NCBI GenBank assembly: GCA_018400535.1
Contig: JAGYMQ010000118.1
Span: 1 to 53,265 of the forward strand
DNA from: Candidatus Cloacimonadota bacterium
GTDB taxonomy: Bacteria; Cloacimonadota; Cloacimonadia; Cloacimonadales; TCS61
Reading direction: 5' to 3'
DNA length: 53,265 bases
The position numbers were made by a program, and so were the translations under genes. Below are positions 1 to 5,743 of the stretch, piece by piece. The notes beneath the pieces are model-generated. The model saw only the letters and a program-made list of their open reading frames with translations, was not told where the DNA came from and searched no databases. Numbering within the stretch: position 1 is the first letter of the stretch; each line of letters opens with the position of its first letter.

Positions 1-225
1 GATCCCGAGTTTGGTTCCAGTGGCTTTAGCTTCCTTCCTGGCGGTTATCGCAGCTACTACAATGGTAACTTCAGCCTTATGGGCGACAGCGGTTACCTCT
101 GGTCTTCTACAGAGAGCCATAGTACTTACGCCTGGCGCCGGAACTTGTACTATAACTATACGCAGGTAGGCCGGGACAGCACCACTAAGCACTACGGGTT
201 TTCTGTGCGTTGTGTGCGGGATTGA
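1..225 (+). CDS. C-terminal end of DGR target protein (Fib_succ_major/lectin-like fold), partial
   Basis: The reading frame is open from base 1 and stops at TGA 223-225, leaving the last 74 residues of a longer protein that starts outside the window. The fragment carries LPGGYR, a WSSTE motif, an AW.R.L.Y stretch and a terminal GFSVRCVRD. These are typical of the Fibrobacter succinogenes major paralogous domain (formylglycine-enzyme/C-type-lectin-like fold), a known class of DGR target domain. The last 199 bases are the variable repeat, so 22 of the final 66 residues differ from those encoded by the template repeat. Variable positions are Tyr-, Ser-, Asp-, Thr- and His-rich, as expected of a diversified ligand-binding face. 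The ligand and the N-terminal part, including any secretion signal, cannot be seen. Confidence 0.85.
   Translation, partial: DPEFGSSGFSFLPGGYRSYYNGNFSLMGDSGYLWSSTESHSTYAWRRNLYYNYTQVGRDSTTKHYGFSVRCVRD
25..223 (+). repeat. DGR variable repeat (VR)
   Basis: This segment aligns without gaps to 1022-1220. I counted 28 mismatches in 199 positions. Every one is at an A in the template copy: 11 A-to-T, 11 A-to-G and 6 A-to-C. The last 29 bases (195-223) are identical to the template and form the likely IMH-type initiation region for mutagenic homing. Upstream of base 25 the two copies diverge at non-adenine positions, which sets the 5' border. The repeat ends exactly at the stop codon of the target gene. 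Confidence 0.95.
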
Positions 226-479
226 GATTATTGACTATCAGGCGGCAGCCTGACGAGCTATGCTCGTTTGACTATTTGACTATTTATCCTGTTGAATAGA
301 CCTTTGGTCTTATGCGAAGCATATTCAACAGGATTTATACCGACGAAGTCGGGATCGAATTTTCAAAAACTTCGGAATGTTCAGCTTTGCTGATCTTCCG
401 AATGTTTGGAGTTAAAGTGAAAATAATAACATCCCGAAGATTTCCCTCTGGTTAAACATTCGGAAGTTAAAGGCATAAA
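226..479. other. Highly structured spacer between VR and avd (chain of mini-hairpins and a three-way junction)
   Basis: No gene is present. Inverted repeats read off directly are: TCAGGC/GCCTGA with GGCA loop (238-253); CGAGC/GCTCG with TAT loop (254-266); an 11-bp outer stem 286-296/324-334 enclosing AGACC-TTT-GGTCT (298-310) and TATGC-GAA-GCATA (311-323), a nearly perfect three-way junction; CCGAC-GAA-GTCGG (340-352); and TTCGGAA/TTCCGAA (371-377/396-402) enclosing TCAGC-TTT-GCTGA (381-393). TTGACTAT occurs three times (231-238, 268-275, 276-283) around the first two hairpins. TCCGAATGTTT (397-407) can also pair with 454-464. Hairpins just 3' of the VR are known to assist homing in the Bordetella phage DGR; the same role here is inference. 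Confidence 0.75.
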
Positions 480-821
480 ATGGCAAACTACGATGAACTA
501 CCGGTTTATAAAGCAAGCTATGATTTACTTGTAGAGATATTTCAGTTCACCAAGAATTTTAAACGTGAATTTAAATATACAATAGGTGAGAGCTTGAAAA
601 AGGAGACGATAGATCTAATTACTTTGATTTACAGGGCAAACAGCAGGAGAGATAAGTTTCAGGTTTTGCAGGAAGCAAGAGAAAGCATCGAAGTGATACG
701 ATTATTTGTAAGATTACTGAAAGACTTAAGGCAGGTAAGCTTGAAGAAATTCGTGTTCATAAACAAACAAATTGAAAATGTATCCAAACAGCTAACTGGC
801 TGGCAGAAGAAGATGAAATGA
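480..821 (+). CDS. avd: DGR accessory variability determinant (Avd-like four-helix bundle)
   Basis: This 113-residue, Lys/Arg-rich, all-helical-looking protein (start MANYDELPVYKASYDLL) matches the small four-helix-bundle family that includes Avd and the 23S rRNA intervening-sequence (S23-type) proteins. In DGRs Avd binds the reverse transcriptase and the template RNA and is needed for cDNA synthesis. Its place between the variable repeat and the template repeat reproduces the classic target-avd-TR-RT order, which is the main reason for choosing Avd over an S23-type protein. An AAAGG sequence lies about 10 bases before ATG 480. The stop codon TGA 819-821 opens directly into the template-RNA region. 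Confidence 0.85.
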   Translation: MANYDELPVYKASYDLLVEIFQFTKNFKREFKYTIGESLKKETIDLITLIYRANSRRDKFQVLQEARESIEVIRLFVRLLKDLRQVSLKKFVFINKQIENVSKQLTGWQKKMK

Positions 822-1268
822 ATTGGGGAAAAAGACTAATGTATGAACTAGCAAGAGTTACTTTCACCTACGGGGAAAGTAAGAAGGCATATCTAAATCC
901 GGCAGCTCCCTTGTTTTATATCTTGCGAATGGTTAAAAACCTTCGCAATAGTATAATTATTCAACAAGGTATAATCCTTGCATTTTCTGAGAATGGAGAT
1001 GTAAATAATTCAGCGGCTGCAAATAGCTTCCTTCCTGGCGGTTATCGCAACAACAACAATGGTAACTTCAACAATATGGGCAACAACGGTAACCTCTGGT
1101 CTTCTACAGAGAACAATAGTACAAACGCCTGGAACCGGAACTTGAACTATAACAATACACAGGTAAACCGGAACAACAACAATAAGCAAAACGGGTTTTC
1201 TGTGCGTTGTGTGCGGGATTTGGAGTTCATGATCATTGGTCTTTTACCTTTTATATGCGAGAAGTTTT
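822..1268 (+). ncRNA. Probable DGR template RNA region (contains TR)
   Basis: This is the space between avd and the reverse transcriptase start. It holds the template repeat and is expected to be transcribed as the DGR template RNA; the ends are inferred from flanking genes only. Upstream of the repeat is a hairpin, TTGCGAA-T-GGTT-AAA-AACC-TTCGCAA (923-948), with 11 base pairs and one bulged T. Only 48 bases separate the end of the repeat (1220) from the RT start codon (1269), so any 3' spacer needed for cDNA priming must be short or run into the RT coding sequence. An open frame crosses the region (818-1279), but its Asn-run translation reflects the template rather than a gene. Confidence 0.7.
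1022..1220 (+). repeat. DGR template repeat (TR)
   Basis: This is the invariant, adenine-rich template copy of the variable repeat at 25-223. Read in the target frame it encodes 66 residues, 25 of them Asn from AAC/AAT codons. That is the usual DGR design, because AAY codons can mutate to 15 amino acids but never to a stop. Of those 25 Asn codons, 21 are changed in the variable copy, plus one Gln codon and two silent Thr codons. Positions 1192-1220 are identical to the variable copy and represent the IMH* counterpart. Confidence 0.95.
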
Positions 1269-2474
1269 ATGCAGCTTAAACTATTCGAAGAATACTTTGA
1301 GAATAAAGTGCTTGAAGATCTATTCAAAGCCTATTTCGATGCGCGGAAAAATAAAAGAAATACGATCAATGCTTTAGCTTTTGAAAAATCTTTTGAAGAG
1401 TATATTTTTGTTTTATGGGAAGAAATTCTATCAGGTAACTATAAACCAAAGGCAAGCATTTGTTTTATCGTAAATAATCCTGTAAAAAGAGAAATATTTG
1501 CTGCTGATTTTCGGGATAGGGTTGTTCATCATCTTATTTGCAACTACATTGCACCGGTCCTTGAAAAACTTTTTATCAATGATAGCTATAGCTGTAGAAA
1601 AGGTAAAGGCACTCATTATGGCATAAAGCGAATAGACCACTTTATTCGCTCCTGTTCGAAAAATTATCAGGAGAATTGCTACATATTAAAATTGGACATA
1701 AAGGGGTATTTTATGTCGATAAATCGGGAAATCCTCTATAAAAAAGTAAAAACAAACCTATTCTCAAAATATCACAAGTTGGAATTTGATGTTGATCTGA
1801 TTCTAAATTTGATAAAAAAAACGATATTTAATGACCCCACTCAAAATTGTACTATAAAAGGTAATAGAAAAGATTGGCAAGATTTACCGAAAGATAAAAG
1901 TTTGTTCTCTGTAAAGGAAAATTCTGGTCTGCCTATCGGAAATTTAACTTCACAATTATTTGGTAATGTTTATTTGAACGATTTTGATCATTTTGTGAAA
2001 AGGGATTTGAAGATTAAGTACTATGGTCGTTATGTGGATGATTTTGTATTAATTCATAATGATAGAGAGTATCTCAAGTCAATAATTAGTGAAATCAAAT
2101 CCTATCTAAAAAGAGAACTAAATCTAACTCTTCATCCCAACAAAGTATATTTACAACATTTTTTTAAAGGTGTTAAGTTTTTAGGTGCAATTATAAAACC
2201 GTATAGAATATACATAGCAAATAGAACTATTGGAAATTTTTATAATGCAATTCAAAAACAAAATGAAATTGTAGATAGTCATAAACCAACTACAGAGGAA
2301 ATTGAAGATTTTGTAGCAAGTATGAATTCTTATCTTGGTATATTACAACACTATAAAACTTATAAGATCAGGAAGGATATGTTATGGAAATACCTTTCTG
2401 GTTGGTGGTGGAATAATGTTTACCTAAGTGGTGGTTATAAAAAATTTAATAAGATGCTAAGGAGTGTTTCATGA
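1269..2474 (+). CDS. DGR reverse transcriptase
   Basis: A 401-residue retroelement reverse transcriptase. Visible motifs are the catalytic aspartate in LKLDIKGYF (about D143), the DGR/group II-like GLPIGNLTSQ (about 220-229, in place of the retroviral QG motif), the active-site YVDD in GRYVDDFVL (about 255-258), and FKGVKFLGA after it. There is no maturase (X), endonuclease or RNase H extension, and the length is normal for DGR enzymes. It copies the template RNA with adenine-specific errors; the cDNA then replaces the variable repeat. The chosen start is ATG 1269 with GAGAAG four bases upstream; an in-frame TTG at 1236 lacks a ribosome site and lies close to the template. The stop overlaps the next start (ATGA, 2471-2474). 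Confidence 0.93.
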   Translation: MQLKLFEEYFENKVLEDLFKAYFDARKNKRNTINALAFEKSFEEYIFVLWEEILSGNYKPKASICFIVNNPVKREIFAADFRDRVVHHLICNYIAPVLEKLFINDSYSCRKGKGTHYGIKRIDHFIRSCSKNYQENCYILKLDIKGYFMSINREILYKKVKTNLFSKYHKLEFDVDLILNLIKKTIFNDPTQNCTIKGNRKDWQDLPKDKSLFSVKENSGLPIGNLTSQLFGNVYLNDFDHFVKRDLKIKYYGRYVDDFVLIHNDREYLKSIISEIKSYLKRELNLTLHPNKVYLQHFFKGVKFLGAIIKPYRIYIANRTIGNFYNAIQKQNEIVDSHKPTTEEIEDFVASMNSYLGILQHYKTYKIRKDMLWKYLSGWWWNNVYLSGGYKKFNKMLRSVS

Positions 2475-5400
2475 AAAAATCGATTATATTATTCACAATG
2501 ATTTTTTTATTTACAAATGTATTTGCAAGCCGGGCTACGGGTTATGCCATATCCGATCCTGTCAGTATCAATACGATGATGGGACAAACAGGTTATGCGA
2601 TATCTGATCCTGTTTCCATCAATACTATGGGAGTTTCTTATAGTGATTACCGCATCGTAGAAGTATCGCAGGCTCCGAATCCAACTATATTACAAATACC
2701 AGATGCCGGTGTGGGTTATGCCTGGTTTGTGGTGGAAGGAGAAACTAACGGAAGCTGGCTTCCTGTTCCGGATATAGATATTTTAGCAGAAGATGGTCAG
2801 GGCAATATCATCCAATGCCAGGCAAATTTCCTGCCCTTTCAATTTCTCACAGCTCCCTATCATTTTCAAAATGCCGGTGTTTTCTGTATTCCCATACCGG
2901 CTGATATGGTGGGAGATGGTTGTATAGGAGCAATGGAAACTTTTACTGTAATAACAGCCAATGGAGAACAAATCGCACCGACTAATCAGCAAAGTATTAC
3001 TGCAGAGATCATTCCCTATGAATACACAGCCAGCTGGGGTTATCGCATCTACGCTCAAGGCGGTGCAGGTTTAACTGGAGGTGTTGTAACTGCAACGGGT
3101 TTTGCCGGTGGAGGATCTGGCTCTAAAATGGAGATCTTATTGGAAGGACTCGATAGTAATCCAAGCTGGAACAGTTTTAAGATATATCGTAGAGATGATC
3201 TTTTCGTTGGAGCAGAGCTCAGTCTTGGTCCGCCCACATTGATAAATACAAATACCGGAGCGAGTGCCACAGTAACAGCATCCTTTCCCTATGAACATGA
3301 ATTCGACTTCGATCTGGACGATCTGGAAGGGTTGGAAGCTTTAATGGCTTATTACCTTTTTGCAGAACCTTCGATCATCTATGGAACAAGCACTATTCCC
3401 GGAGGGCAAATAGCTACAAATTTCCTCTCCTGGTCGGTAGAAGCATTGATCGAAAATTCGGGTCAGAACGGTCTTGGTATCGTGCGAGTGGCAGATGAGA
3501 CCGGGCTAGATATCGAGGGTAGCATCTCCTTTTCCACTAATATTCTGGAAGGTTTGCCTATGGGAATGAATATGGGGGCGAGTATGGGTGCAAGTGCACA
3601 CCTGGGTGGCAGTAAGAAAATATATGAAGATGGTATCATTAACCGAAGATTATATGTAGGCGGAGGTTATGATGTTTCTGCTGGAATCGGACCACAGTTT
3701 ATCCCGGCAGAGAATACAAAATGTAAAATGATCTATCCCTTCCGTATGAATCAAAACTACATTCCTTCTTCTATGGAAGTTAATTTTGCCTATCTGGGAA
3801 CCTGGCAGAATACAAACTGGCAATCGACTCAACTTTCTGCATCACTGGCGAGTAATTCATCATTACTCAATATCTATGACCTGCCCGGTCAGACTCAGGA
3901 ATATACAGCCTGGCTCAATATCGATAATACCGATGTGAAAAACATCTTGATGAACACTGCCGAATTACCGTCTGAATTGATCAATATCGGCTCATCAGCT
4001 GTCGATGTAGCTATTAATAATGAATCTTTCAAAACAGATTACGTCGATTTTCTGGAAGATGTGTATGATGAACAGAATGATGATCTTCCTGTACAATTAC
4101 AATATGGTTTCGATGCTGAAGATAAGAGCCAGTACAGTATCGATATGGACCTGGAATTTCCCTTAGCTGCTTTTCCACCATTAGTCATCAAATTAGGAGG
4201 TGGATTAGAAGCAACCAATTCCCGTAATTATAAACTGGCAGATGGATATTGGGTGAAAGGATTACCGTATCTGCAATATGAGATGCCCGATCCACCGCAA
4301 CCGGGCACTAATTTTGTGGAAGTTATGCAGGATTTGTGGAACAATGTGATTTCCGGCAATGTGTTACAAGAATTGACAGATGTAATTTTAGCGCATTTGC
4401 AAGGGACTTTTTTTAATTGGCTGGGTAATCGAAGTGAGCAGGTTATTGAATTAAATGATAGGGGAACCACTTTAACTATCAATGAGAATTCCATACCTAC
4501 AGGTGTGGATTCTGTGCTTTGCCGAAATTGGGAGTGGTACGAAGAACCGGCAAGCTCGGATCTAACAGATCAGCAAACACAAATGATAAACGAATATAAT
4601 ATTCGTCTGCGTCAGATTCGAGAGCAGGCTGCAGGATTGCATTACGGTATCGGAGGATTCTTCAAGTTCGAACCGGAAGGCGAAGCGTTCGGTGATAGCA
4701 CACTGCTGAGCATTGCCTATGCCGATAGTGAAGTGGTGGATCTCGATGAAACAACTCTCGGTATCTATTGGGAAGATGATAATGGCAGTTGGAACCAAAT
4801 TTCCTCTACAGCTATTCCCGATTCTAATAAGGTGAAAGCATATATCGATCAATTTACAGTTTATACGATTGCTCCACGCTTACCACAAGGTTCATACATT
4901 TTGAATGCAGATCCCGATAGTTTAGCAGCAGATGGTAGTTCTACCGCAACAGTAACTTCTGAAGTAATGCTCAATAACGATGGAACCACGATCCAGGATG
5001 GAGAATTGTTTACCGTTCAATCCGATCGTGATCTTATCATCACCAGCGATGCCGATCCCCAGATAGCAGGAATTCAGGTAGCTGTTTCTGCAGGAACGAT
5101 CCAATTCACAGTTCAAGCAGATTCCATTTCGACTCCGATTGTGATCAATTCTTACTCAGTAAATGGATATGCAACTTGCCAAATGGAGTTGATTCTTTAT
5201 GACGTATCTATTCCAGATACACCTGTTCTGCTCTCGATCGAGCCAGAGCACAAAGCTCTTCAATTAAGCTGGCAGCAGGTAACGGCTCCGGATCTGGCAG
5301 GTTATAAAATATATTACGATAACGATCAGAGTGGTGTACCCTATAACGGTACAGCTAATACAAGTGGAGTGAACAGTCCCGTTACAGTCGGTTTAACCGA

Positions 5401-5743
5401 AAGTTATTATCTCAATGGTCTTACTAACAACGAGACTTATTACATCTCAATAACTGCCTTTGATGTATCGGGAACAGAAAGCAATTATGCCAATGAGGTA
5501 AGTGTAACACCGGAATTGCACTCCGTAGAAAACCTTAATATCGAAAAGGTAGATACAGGCATCAAACTTTCCTGGGATGCCGTGTATAATGCCCATTCTT
5601 ACAAGATCTATCGCGGTACAGAACCAGATATGGATATCTCTAATATGGATATGAAAGCACAGGTTTCAACCACTAATTGGACAGACACAGATATTGCAGG
5701 AGCATCTAGCTATTTCTATCGAGTTGTGGTGGTGGCATATTGA
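2471..5743 (+). CDS. Large secreted FN3-containing protein, translationally coupled to the DGR RT
   Basis: A 1090-residue exported protein. It has a signal peptide (MKKSIILFTMIFLFTNVFAS), then a tandem 17-residue repeat (TGYAISDPVSINTM twice, residues 23-53), about 750 residues I do not recognise that are rich in Gly, Asn and Asp, an Ig/invasin-like segment (about 800-895, starting YILNADPDSLAADGSS), and two fibronectin type III domains at the C-terminus (about 915-1010 and 1015-1090). There is no C-terminal sorting module, and it stops at the end of the last FN3 domain. Its start overlaps the RT stop as ATGA, so it is in the DGR transcript, but it has no copy of the variable repeat. A surface scaffold or adhesin role is inferred. 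Codon use looks less A-rich than in the housekeeping genes. Confidence 0.75.
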   Translation: MKKSIILFTMIFLFTNVFASRATGYAISDPVSINTMMGQTGYAISDPVSINTMGVSYSDYRIVEVSQAPNPTILQIPDAGVGYAWFVVEGETNGSWLPVPDIDILAEDGQGNIIQCQANFLPFQFLTAPYHFQNAGVFCIPIPADMVGDGCIGAMETFTVITANGEQIAPTNQQSITAEIIPYEYTASWGYRIYAQGGAGLTGGVVTATGFAGGGSGSKMEILLEGLDSNPSWNSFKIYRRDDLFVGAELSLGPPTLINTNTGASATVTASFPYEHEFDFDLDDLEGLEALMAYYLFAEPSIIYGTSTIPGGQIATNFLSWSVEALIENSGQNGLGIVRVADETGLDIEGSISFSTNILEGLPMGMNMGASMGASAHLGGSKKIYEDGIINRRLYVGGGYDVSAGIGPQFIPAENTKCKMIYPFRMNQNYIPSSMEVNFAYLGTWQNTNWQSTQLSASLASNSSLLNIYDLPGQTQEYTAWLNIDNTDVKNILMNTAELPSELINIGSSAVDVAINNESFKTDYVDFLEDVYDEQNDDLPVQLQYGFDAEDKSQYSIDMDLEFPLAAFPPLVIKLGGGLEATNSRNYKLADGYWVKGLPYLQYEMPDPPQPGTNFVEVMQDLWNNVISGNVLQELTDVILAHLQGTFFNWLGNRSEQVIELNDRGTTLTINENSIPTGVDSVLCRNWEWYEEPASSDLTDQQTQMINEYNIRLRQIREQAAGLHYGIGGFFKFEPEGEAFGDSTLLSIAYADSEVVDLDETTLGIYWEDDNGSWNQISSTAIPDSNKVKAYIDQFTVYTIAPRLPQGSYILNADPDSLAADGSSTATVTSEVMLNNDGTTIQDGELFTVQSDRDLIITSDADPQIAGIQVAVSAGTIQFTVQADSISTPIVINSYSVNGYATCQMELILYDVSIPDTPVLLSIEPEHKALQLSWQQVTAPDLAGYKIYYDNDQSGVPYNGTANTSGVNSPVTVGLTESYYLNGLTNNETYYISITAFDVSGTESNYANEVSVTPELHSVENLNIEKVDTGIKLSWDAVYNAHSYKIYRGTEPDMDISNMDMKAQVSTTNWTDTDIAGASSYFYRVVVVAY
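2537..2629 (+). repeat. Tandem 51-bp in-frame duplication in the secreted protein N-terminus
   Basis: The codons for TGYAISDPVSINTM occur at 2537-2578 and again at 2588-2629, a period of 51 bases. The second copy differs mainly at third codon positions, so the amino acid sequence of the repeat is fully conserved while the DNA has drifted. Confidence 0.85.

Follow-up and report, generated by a model that had tools for sequence, protein, structure and literature searches.

A chromosomal DGR with a FISUMP target in a Candidatus Cloacimonadota bacterium, and a candidate recipient mark in the flank of its variable repeat

The left end of a contig from a Candidatus Cloacimonadota bacterium carries two gap-free copies of a 199-nucleotide sequence (a VR and a TR) that differ only where the second copy has adenine, and this raises the questions of whether the two are related by mutagenic homing and, if so, how the recipient copy is told from a template that has the same 3′ end. 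The stretch of DNA analysed (the window, 53,265 nucleotides) is the entire contig C118, and its first base lies 27 nt ahead of the VR core. We put at roughly 95% the probability that the locus is a chromosomal diversity-generating retroelement (DGR) diversifying a FISUMP target, with a tract and hairpins in the VR flank as the putative recipient mark. While the DGR mechanism is known, the tract and a disrupted second target are the new part.

Substitutions between the VR and the TR

1..225, forward strand: last 74 codons of the target gene and its TGA stop (PF09603, E 8.3e-12; TIGR02145)
28..223, forward strand: VR core, with 26 differences from the TR, all at TR adenines; 25-27 is an ambiguous edge codon
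195..223, forward strand: VR 3′ end, same as the TR, A-free for 26 nt and IMH-like
1025..1220, forward strand: TR core (the template), from its alignment to the VR

The target domain is of the Fib_succ_major/FISUMP type, and the VR runs up to its stop codon. Because the contig starts inside the gene, the target is truncated and its 5′ part is missing; a search of the rest of the genome for the N-terminal half of such a domain found none. The product would be a surface-type, putatively C-type-lectin-like and ligand-binding FISUMP protein with about 20 randomised residues. A PDB search by sequence returned no relatives of the target, and an AlphaFold model of a FISUMP paralogue, with a low pLDDT of 38, was set aside.

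Realignment of positions 25-223 with 1022-1220 gives 28 mismatches, every one of them at a TR adenine (11 A>T, 11 A>G and six A>C, with none at C, G or T), reproducing the base counts of the preliminary description; a mismatch at any other template base inside the core repeat, named there as evidence that would count against its reading, was sought and is not present. Its tally of 26 non-synonymous changes and 22 altered residues (21 Asn and one Gln) is correct with the edge codon included, and as two silent Thr codons also differ between VR and TR, 24 codons differ altogether. Positions 25-26 are the 5′ limit of the homology, where the VR has TTT and the TR AAT, and upstream of which the copies do not align; since every paralogue in the genome (on contigs C63, C47 and C49) also has Phe at this edge codon, the VR edge Phe (25-27) is probably ancestral rather than copied from the TR. 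The safe core (28-223) contains 26 differences, 26 of them on A, with 24 non-synonymous and 21 residues changed (20 Asn, one Gln), and none of its 129 non-A positions differs. The hypergeometric chance of 28 out of 28 differences falling on the 67 adenines of the 196-nt core is 9e-16.

For comparison we assembled 182 TR/VR pairs from related loci, chosen for A bias (85% or more). The pooled rate of change is 44.2% at A and 0.5-0.9% at C, G and T, these low rates being partly a consequence of how the pairs were chosen, which is not so for the context biases. Within AAC, T is the main outcome at the first A and G at the second; an A preceding G is seldom changed (12.7%). In the window VR core 39% of the adenines are changed, against 44% pooled in these 182 other DGR VRs; the context rates predict 31 changed adenines and 26 are observed, none of the six that precede G is among them, and the AAC codons have become Tyr six times, Ser five times and Asp twice. 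These AAC outcomes match the bias of the BPP-1 enzyme measured in E. coli (PMC12875486). Mutagenic homing from the window TR to its VR is strongly supported by this base pattern. As to the earlier suggestion that homing is recent or ongoing, the first half stands, as the lack of drift at non-A positions (0 of 129) argues for a recent event, while the second does not, because one consensus sequence cannot show it.

The retroelement genes and their relatives

480..821, forward strand: Avd, accessory variability determinant, 113 aa (PF22296 bAvd, E 6e-17, above cut-off)
818..1279, forward strand: TR-bearing open frame of 153 codons, overlapping the avd stop codon (ATGA) and keeping the VR frame
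1269..2474, forward strand: DGR reverse transcriptase (RT), 401 aa (RVT_1, E 2e-18; IGNLTSQ and YVDD)

Against NF033474 the Avd product scores E 3e-17 with 62.7 bits, under the cut-off of 80. The open frame at 818-1279 was considered as a functional protein, a reading that is unsupported; it is open because the TR retains the VR reading frame. The RT was assigned to the DGR clade by [IVL]GxxxSQ in place of QGxxxSP, together with YxDD, and it carries IGNLTSQ and YVDD, motifs also present in nearly all relatives collected. Its best PDB chain by phmmer is 8ub7_A (E 2.6e-33), which we take to be the BPP-1 RT-Avd complex. The RT stop codon is overlapped (ATGA) by a gene for a secreted-looking protein of 1090 aa with an fn3 domain (2471-5743), inside which no VR was found. 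Searches of Rfam gave no match, and a promoter and terminator scan gave no more hits than chance. A REP-like palindrome of about 45 nt lies at 362-411, with further copies on contigs C76, C146 and C143.

The locus shares with BPP-1 (mtd, avd, TR, brt) the A-specific changes from TR to VR, Avd, the RT, the position of the VR at the 3′ end of the target, and an AAC-rich template with a bias of A1>T and A2>G (PMC12875486). BPP-1 is, however, a phage with an Mtd target, whereas the window is bacterial chromosome with a FISUMP target. Its DGR is one more chromosomal example, in agreement with the BPP-1 enzyme bias. Also close are DGRs on the chromosomes of Bacteroidota, Patescibacteria and Desulfocapsa (L021, L023, L024, L025, L040 and L052), whose RTs are mostly 51-58% identical to that of the window, with IGNLTSQ and YVDD in those inspected. 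Their targets are of FISUMP or CLec type, their TR/VR pairs are A-biased, and an octamer tract follows the VR.

Relatives of the RT at 50-62% identity occur in Bacteroidota, Patescibacteria, Desulfocapsa and others. In its own phylum RT matches were found in 8 of 125 genomes, its own included, the reported identities of the others being 36-37%, and neither of the two same-genus genomes searched contains a match. The nearest rows of the RT tree are Peregrinibacteria and Flavobacteriales, the RT of the Peregrinibacteria locus L023 being nearest by path. As close RTs occur in other phyla and those relatives in its own whose identity is given reach 36-37%, the comparison suggests that this DGR has moved between phyla. 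Plasmids yielded only one weak Nostoc RT match, and phage relatives are at 46% identity or less among the matches listed.

Hairpins and an octamer tract past the VR

By the known mechanism, the TR transcript would be copied by the RT together with Avd, with misinsertion opposite template A mostly in AAC and AAT Asn codons, and the cDNA would replace the homologous 3′ end of the target gene. An IMH/IMH* difference between recipient and template is a feature defined in BPP-1 and is not regarded as required for DGR membership; none is found between VR and TR in their last 29 nt. Since the two are the same through these 29 nt, a recipient mark is expected just downstream of the VR, and here it would consist of one or more hairpins and an 8-nt tandem tract:

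231..238, forward strand: first octamer unit, TTGACTAT, parted from the rest by two hairpins (from comparison with C63)
238..253, forward strand: hairpin TCAGGC-GGCA-GCCTGA with a GRNA loop, 14 nt past the VR
253..267, forward strand: second hairpin, ACGAGC-TAT-GCTCGT, splitting the tract
267..285, forward strand: octamer tract, TTTGACTATTTGACTATTT, the sole lag-8 run of its kind in the window
281..339, forward strand: long stem (281-298 with 322-339) enclosing two small hairpins
340-352, forward strand: C-GAA-G hairpin beyond the long stem

The single-stranded DNA fold of positions 220-420 has a z of -8.0 relative to shuffled sequences, and its centroid leaves the octamers unpaired. Of the VR flanks, 49% contain a perfect hairpin (stem of six or more), compared with 19% of the TR flanks and 8% of shuffled sequences. 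In PMC3240598 the BPP-1-type element is a GRNA-loop hairpin 4-34 bp after the VR with a stem of 7-10 bp; the hairpin at 238-253 agrees in loop (GGCA) and distance, a likeness to BPP-1, although its 6-bp stem is shorter. The window departs from BPP-1 in having no IMH/IMH* difference and in having an octamer tract, of which the portions of the BPP-1 literature examined contain no description. The Nanoarchaeota DUSEL4 DGRs also have small triloop (GRA) hairpins tied to the VR, but the hairpin there is inside the target gene, while that of the window lies downstream of the stop codon (PMC4372165).

The tract is a tandem, T-rich repeat of 7-8 nt that is often present 3′ of the VR in the flanks of relatives. 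Lag-8 self-similarity over the 40 nt that follow the VR has a z of 7.9 in 81 VRs, against 0.2 past the TR. Another 101 VRs, obtained through different RT alignments and cleared of redundancy with those 81, give a z of 9.7 at lag 8 (9.6 at lag 7), against 1.1 past the TR; near copies were removed, but the z values otherwise assume that loci are independent. A subset of the 81 picked by eye (z 10.5) was left out as evidence. TTTRA pairs at exact 8-nt spacing occur 16 times after the VR and never after the TR, and an autocorrelation of 0.5 or more is reached by 20 of the 81 VRs, whereas among 318 ordinary gene ends from these loci 7 reach it. By cut-off, 47 of 182 VR flanks (about a quarter, on both sides of the RT tree) have a tract compared with 4 of 181 TR flanks, and the window is uncounted among the 47 because its tract is split by two hairpins. 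Tracts are commoner when avd follows the VR (32/88) than when it does not (14/93), and are rare in one large phage clade. In that clade (viral contigs L101-L154), mostly lacking the tract, many targets end in ...GGTTCAG-TAAC, with GC-rich inverted repeats further downstream.

Studies of how DGRs recognise their targets, and DGR surveys, describe IMH and hairpins as flank elements (PMC3240598 and PMC4372165 among them). A keyword search of PMC3240598, PMC4372165, PMC8144416, PMC10907252, PMC7517822, PMC4891356, PMC6642488, PMC6199706 and PMC10743442 found no tandem tract, and neither did broader keyword searches of the literature; within this scope the tract appears undescribed, though an earlier report elsewhere is possible.

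A disrupted second target and the reading of the tract

In its own genome (2.62 Mb, two mismatches or fewer) the tract occurs only at C118:267-285 and C63:19518-19544, both times after a VR; its pattern read backwards has zero occurrences there, and a genome scan of both strands found no copy or complement of it in the DGR transcript. Contig C63 carries the only other close VR copy in the genome, and this copy is interrupted:

1209-1472 of L005 (contig C63), reverse strand: GIY-YIG gene, 87 aa (PF01541, E 3e-16)

The gene sits within the last bases of the VR (...GTGTGCGG-insert-TGCGGGATTAAGATTGTTGACTATTTGTCTATTTGACTATTT), with TGCGG flanking the insert on both sides, and cuts the VR off from its octamer tract. 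The VR-like end on C63 is 77% identical to the TR; 29 of its differences fall on A and 16 on the 126 non-A positions. The copy parted from its tract has thus drifted at non-A sites, while the intact copy on C118 has not; this fits the tract acting as a tag, as a single case and not as proof. A GIY-YIG gene also lies directly past the octamer tract of a Peregrinibacteria DGR target (L023, 11546-11800, reverse strand), and no GIY-YIG relatives were found in viral contigs.

Seven genomes with related DGRs were scanned as well, of which five have sites at two mismatches or fewer, 14 distinct sites in all (nine in G127, two in G126 and one each in G125, G129 and G130); 13 of the 14 follow a FISUMP/CLec VR-type C-terminus, the exception being in G130, and the nine in G127 share longer flanks and are not independent. 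Among the 3-mismatch places inspected, only the one at the known VR of L052 (L378) follows a VR-type end. In viral contigs a degenerate form of the motif is found in 46 stretches, one of them at a detected DGR (L328). As a DGR-specific motif in viral contigs the tract is ruled out, 45 of the 46 stretches having no detected DGR, and the motif alone is not diagnostic of a DGR.

Could the two repeats of the window be ordinary diverged paralogues, with selection on Asn codons or compositional mutation behind the A bias? FISUMP paralogues do exist in the genome (C47 and C49), but these differ at all bases, whereas 129 non-A sites, synonymous ones included, are unchanged here, two of the A changes are silent, and a DGR RT and Avd adjoin; the base pattern refutes this reading, whose probability we regard as negligible. 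That the DGR is real but now silent, its VR recording one past homing event that selection has kept or that is too young to have drifted, is a more substantial alternative, for there is one consensus VR, no RT match in the same-genus genomes and an incomplete target gene. Yet the RT, Avd and TR frames are intact, and the 0 of 129 drifted non-A positions compare with 16 of 126 in the C63 copy, and we consider silence unlikely.

The role of the tract is less secure than the DGR itself. It may, judging from where it occurs, belong to the target-recognition signal, and tentatively, at somewhat below even odds, we propose that it acts in cis to tag the targets of many DGRs across phyla, an undescribed kind of mark that would pick the recipient among identical 3′ ends and let a single TR serve many dispersed genes, and whose separation from the VR, as on C63, would retire a target. 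Only a little less probable is that it is a leader, terminator-like or simple-repeat feature unrelated to homing, as might be expected from the many viral contigs that have the motif and no DGR and from its higher frequency where avd follows; but it also follows remote VRs that have no avd close by (L045, L082 and the nine G127 places), is absent after the TR, and seldom follows ordinary genes in the loci concerned. Its tandem form, exactly on the 3′ integration side, would also suit a by-product of repeated homing in which some 8 nt are duplicated each time cDNA integrates, or slippage occurs, at the 3′ junction of the VR. We think this improbable, as near-identical units (GACTATTT and GTCTATTT) recur in different phyla and units vary within one tract, which suits a conserved sequence better than slippage. 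If a tag, the VR-side tract is a direct, testable candidate for how a VR is told from an identical TR outside BPP-1; it would also offer a sequence-based route to remote targets and a possible part for laboratory-built DGR targets.

The genome of L025 (G127, Haliscomenobacteraceae) has nine tract-bearing FISUMP domains (L374, L380, L385, L389, L392 and L393-L396) and is a multi-target DGR, in which some copies are A-biased relative to one TR and others have many non-A differences. The arrangement of the flank also varies: the window tract is interrupted by two hairpins, while L023 has at that place, between VR and tract, an inverted repeat (CCCCGTGAGATA/TATCTCACGGGG), with its GIY-YIG gene past the tract.
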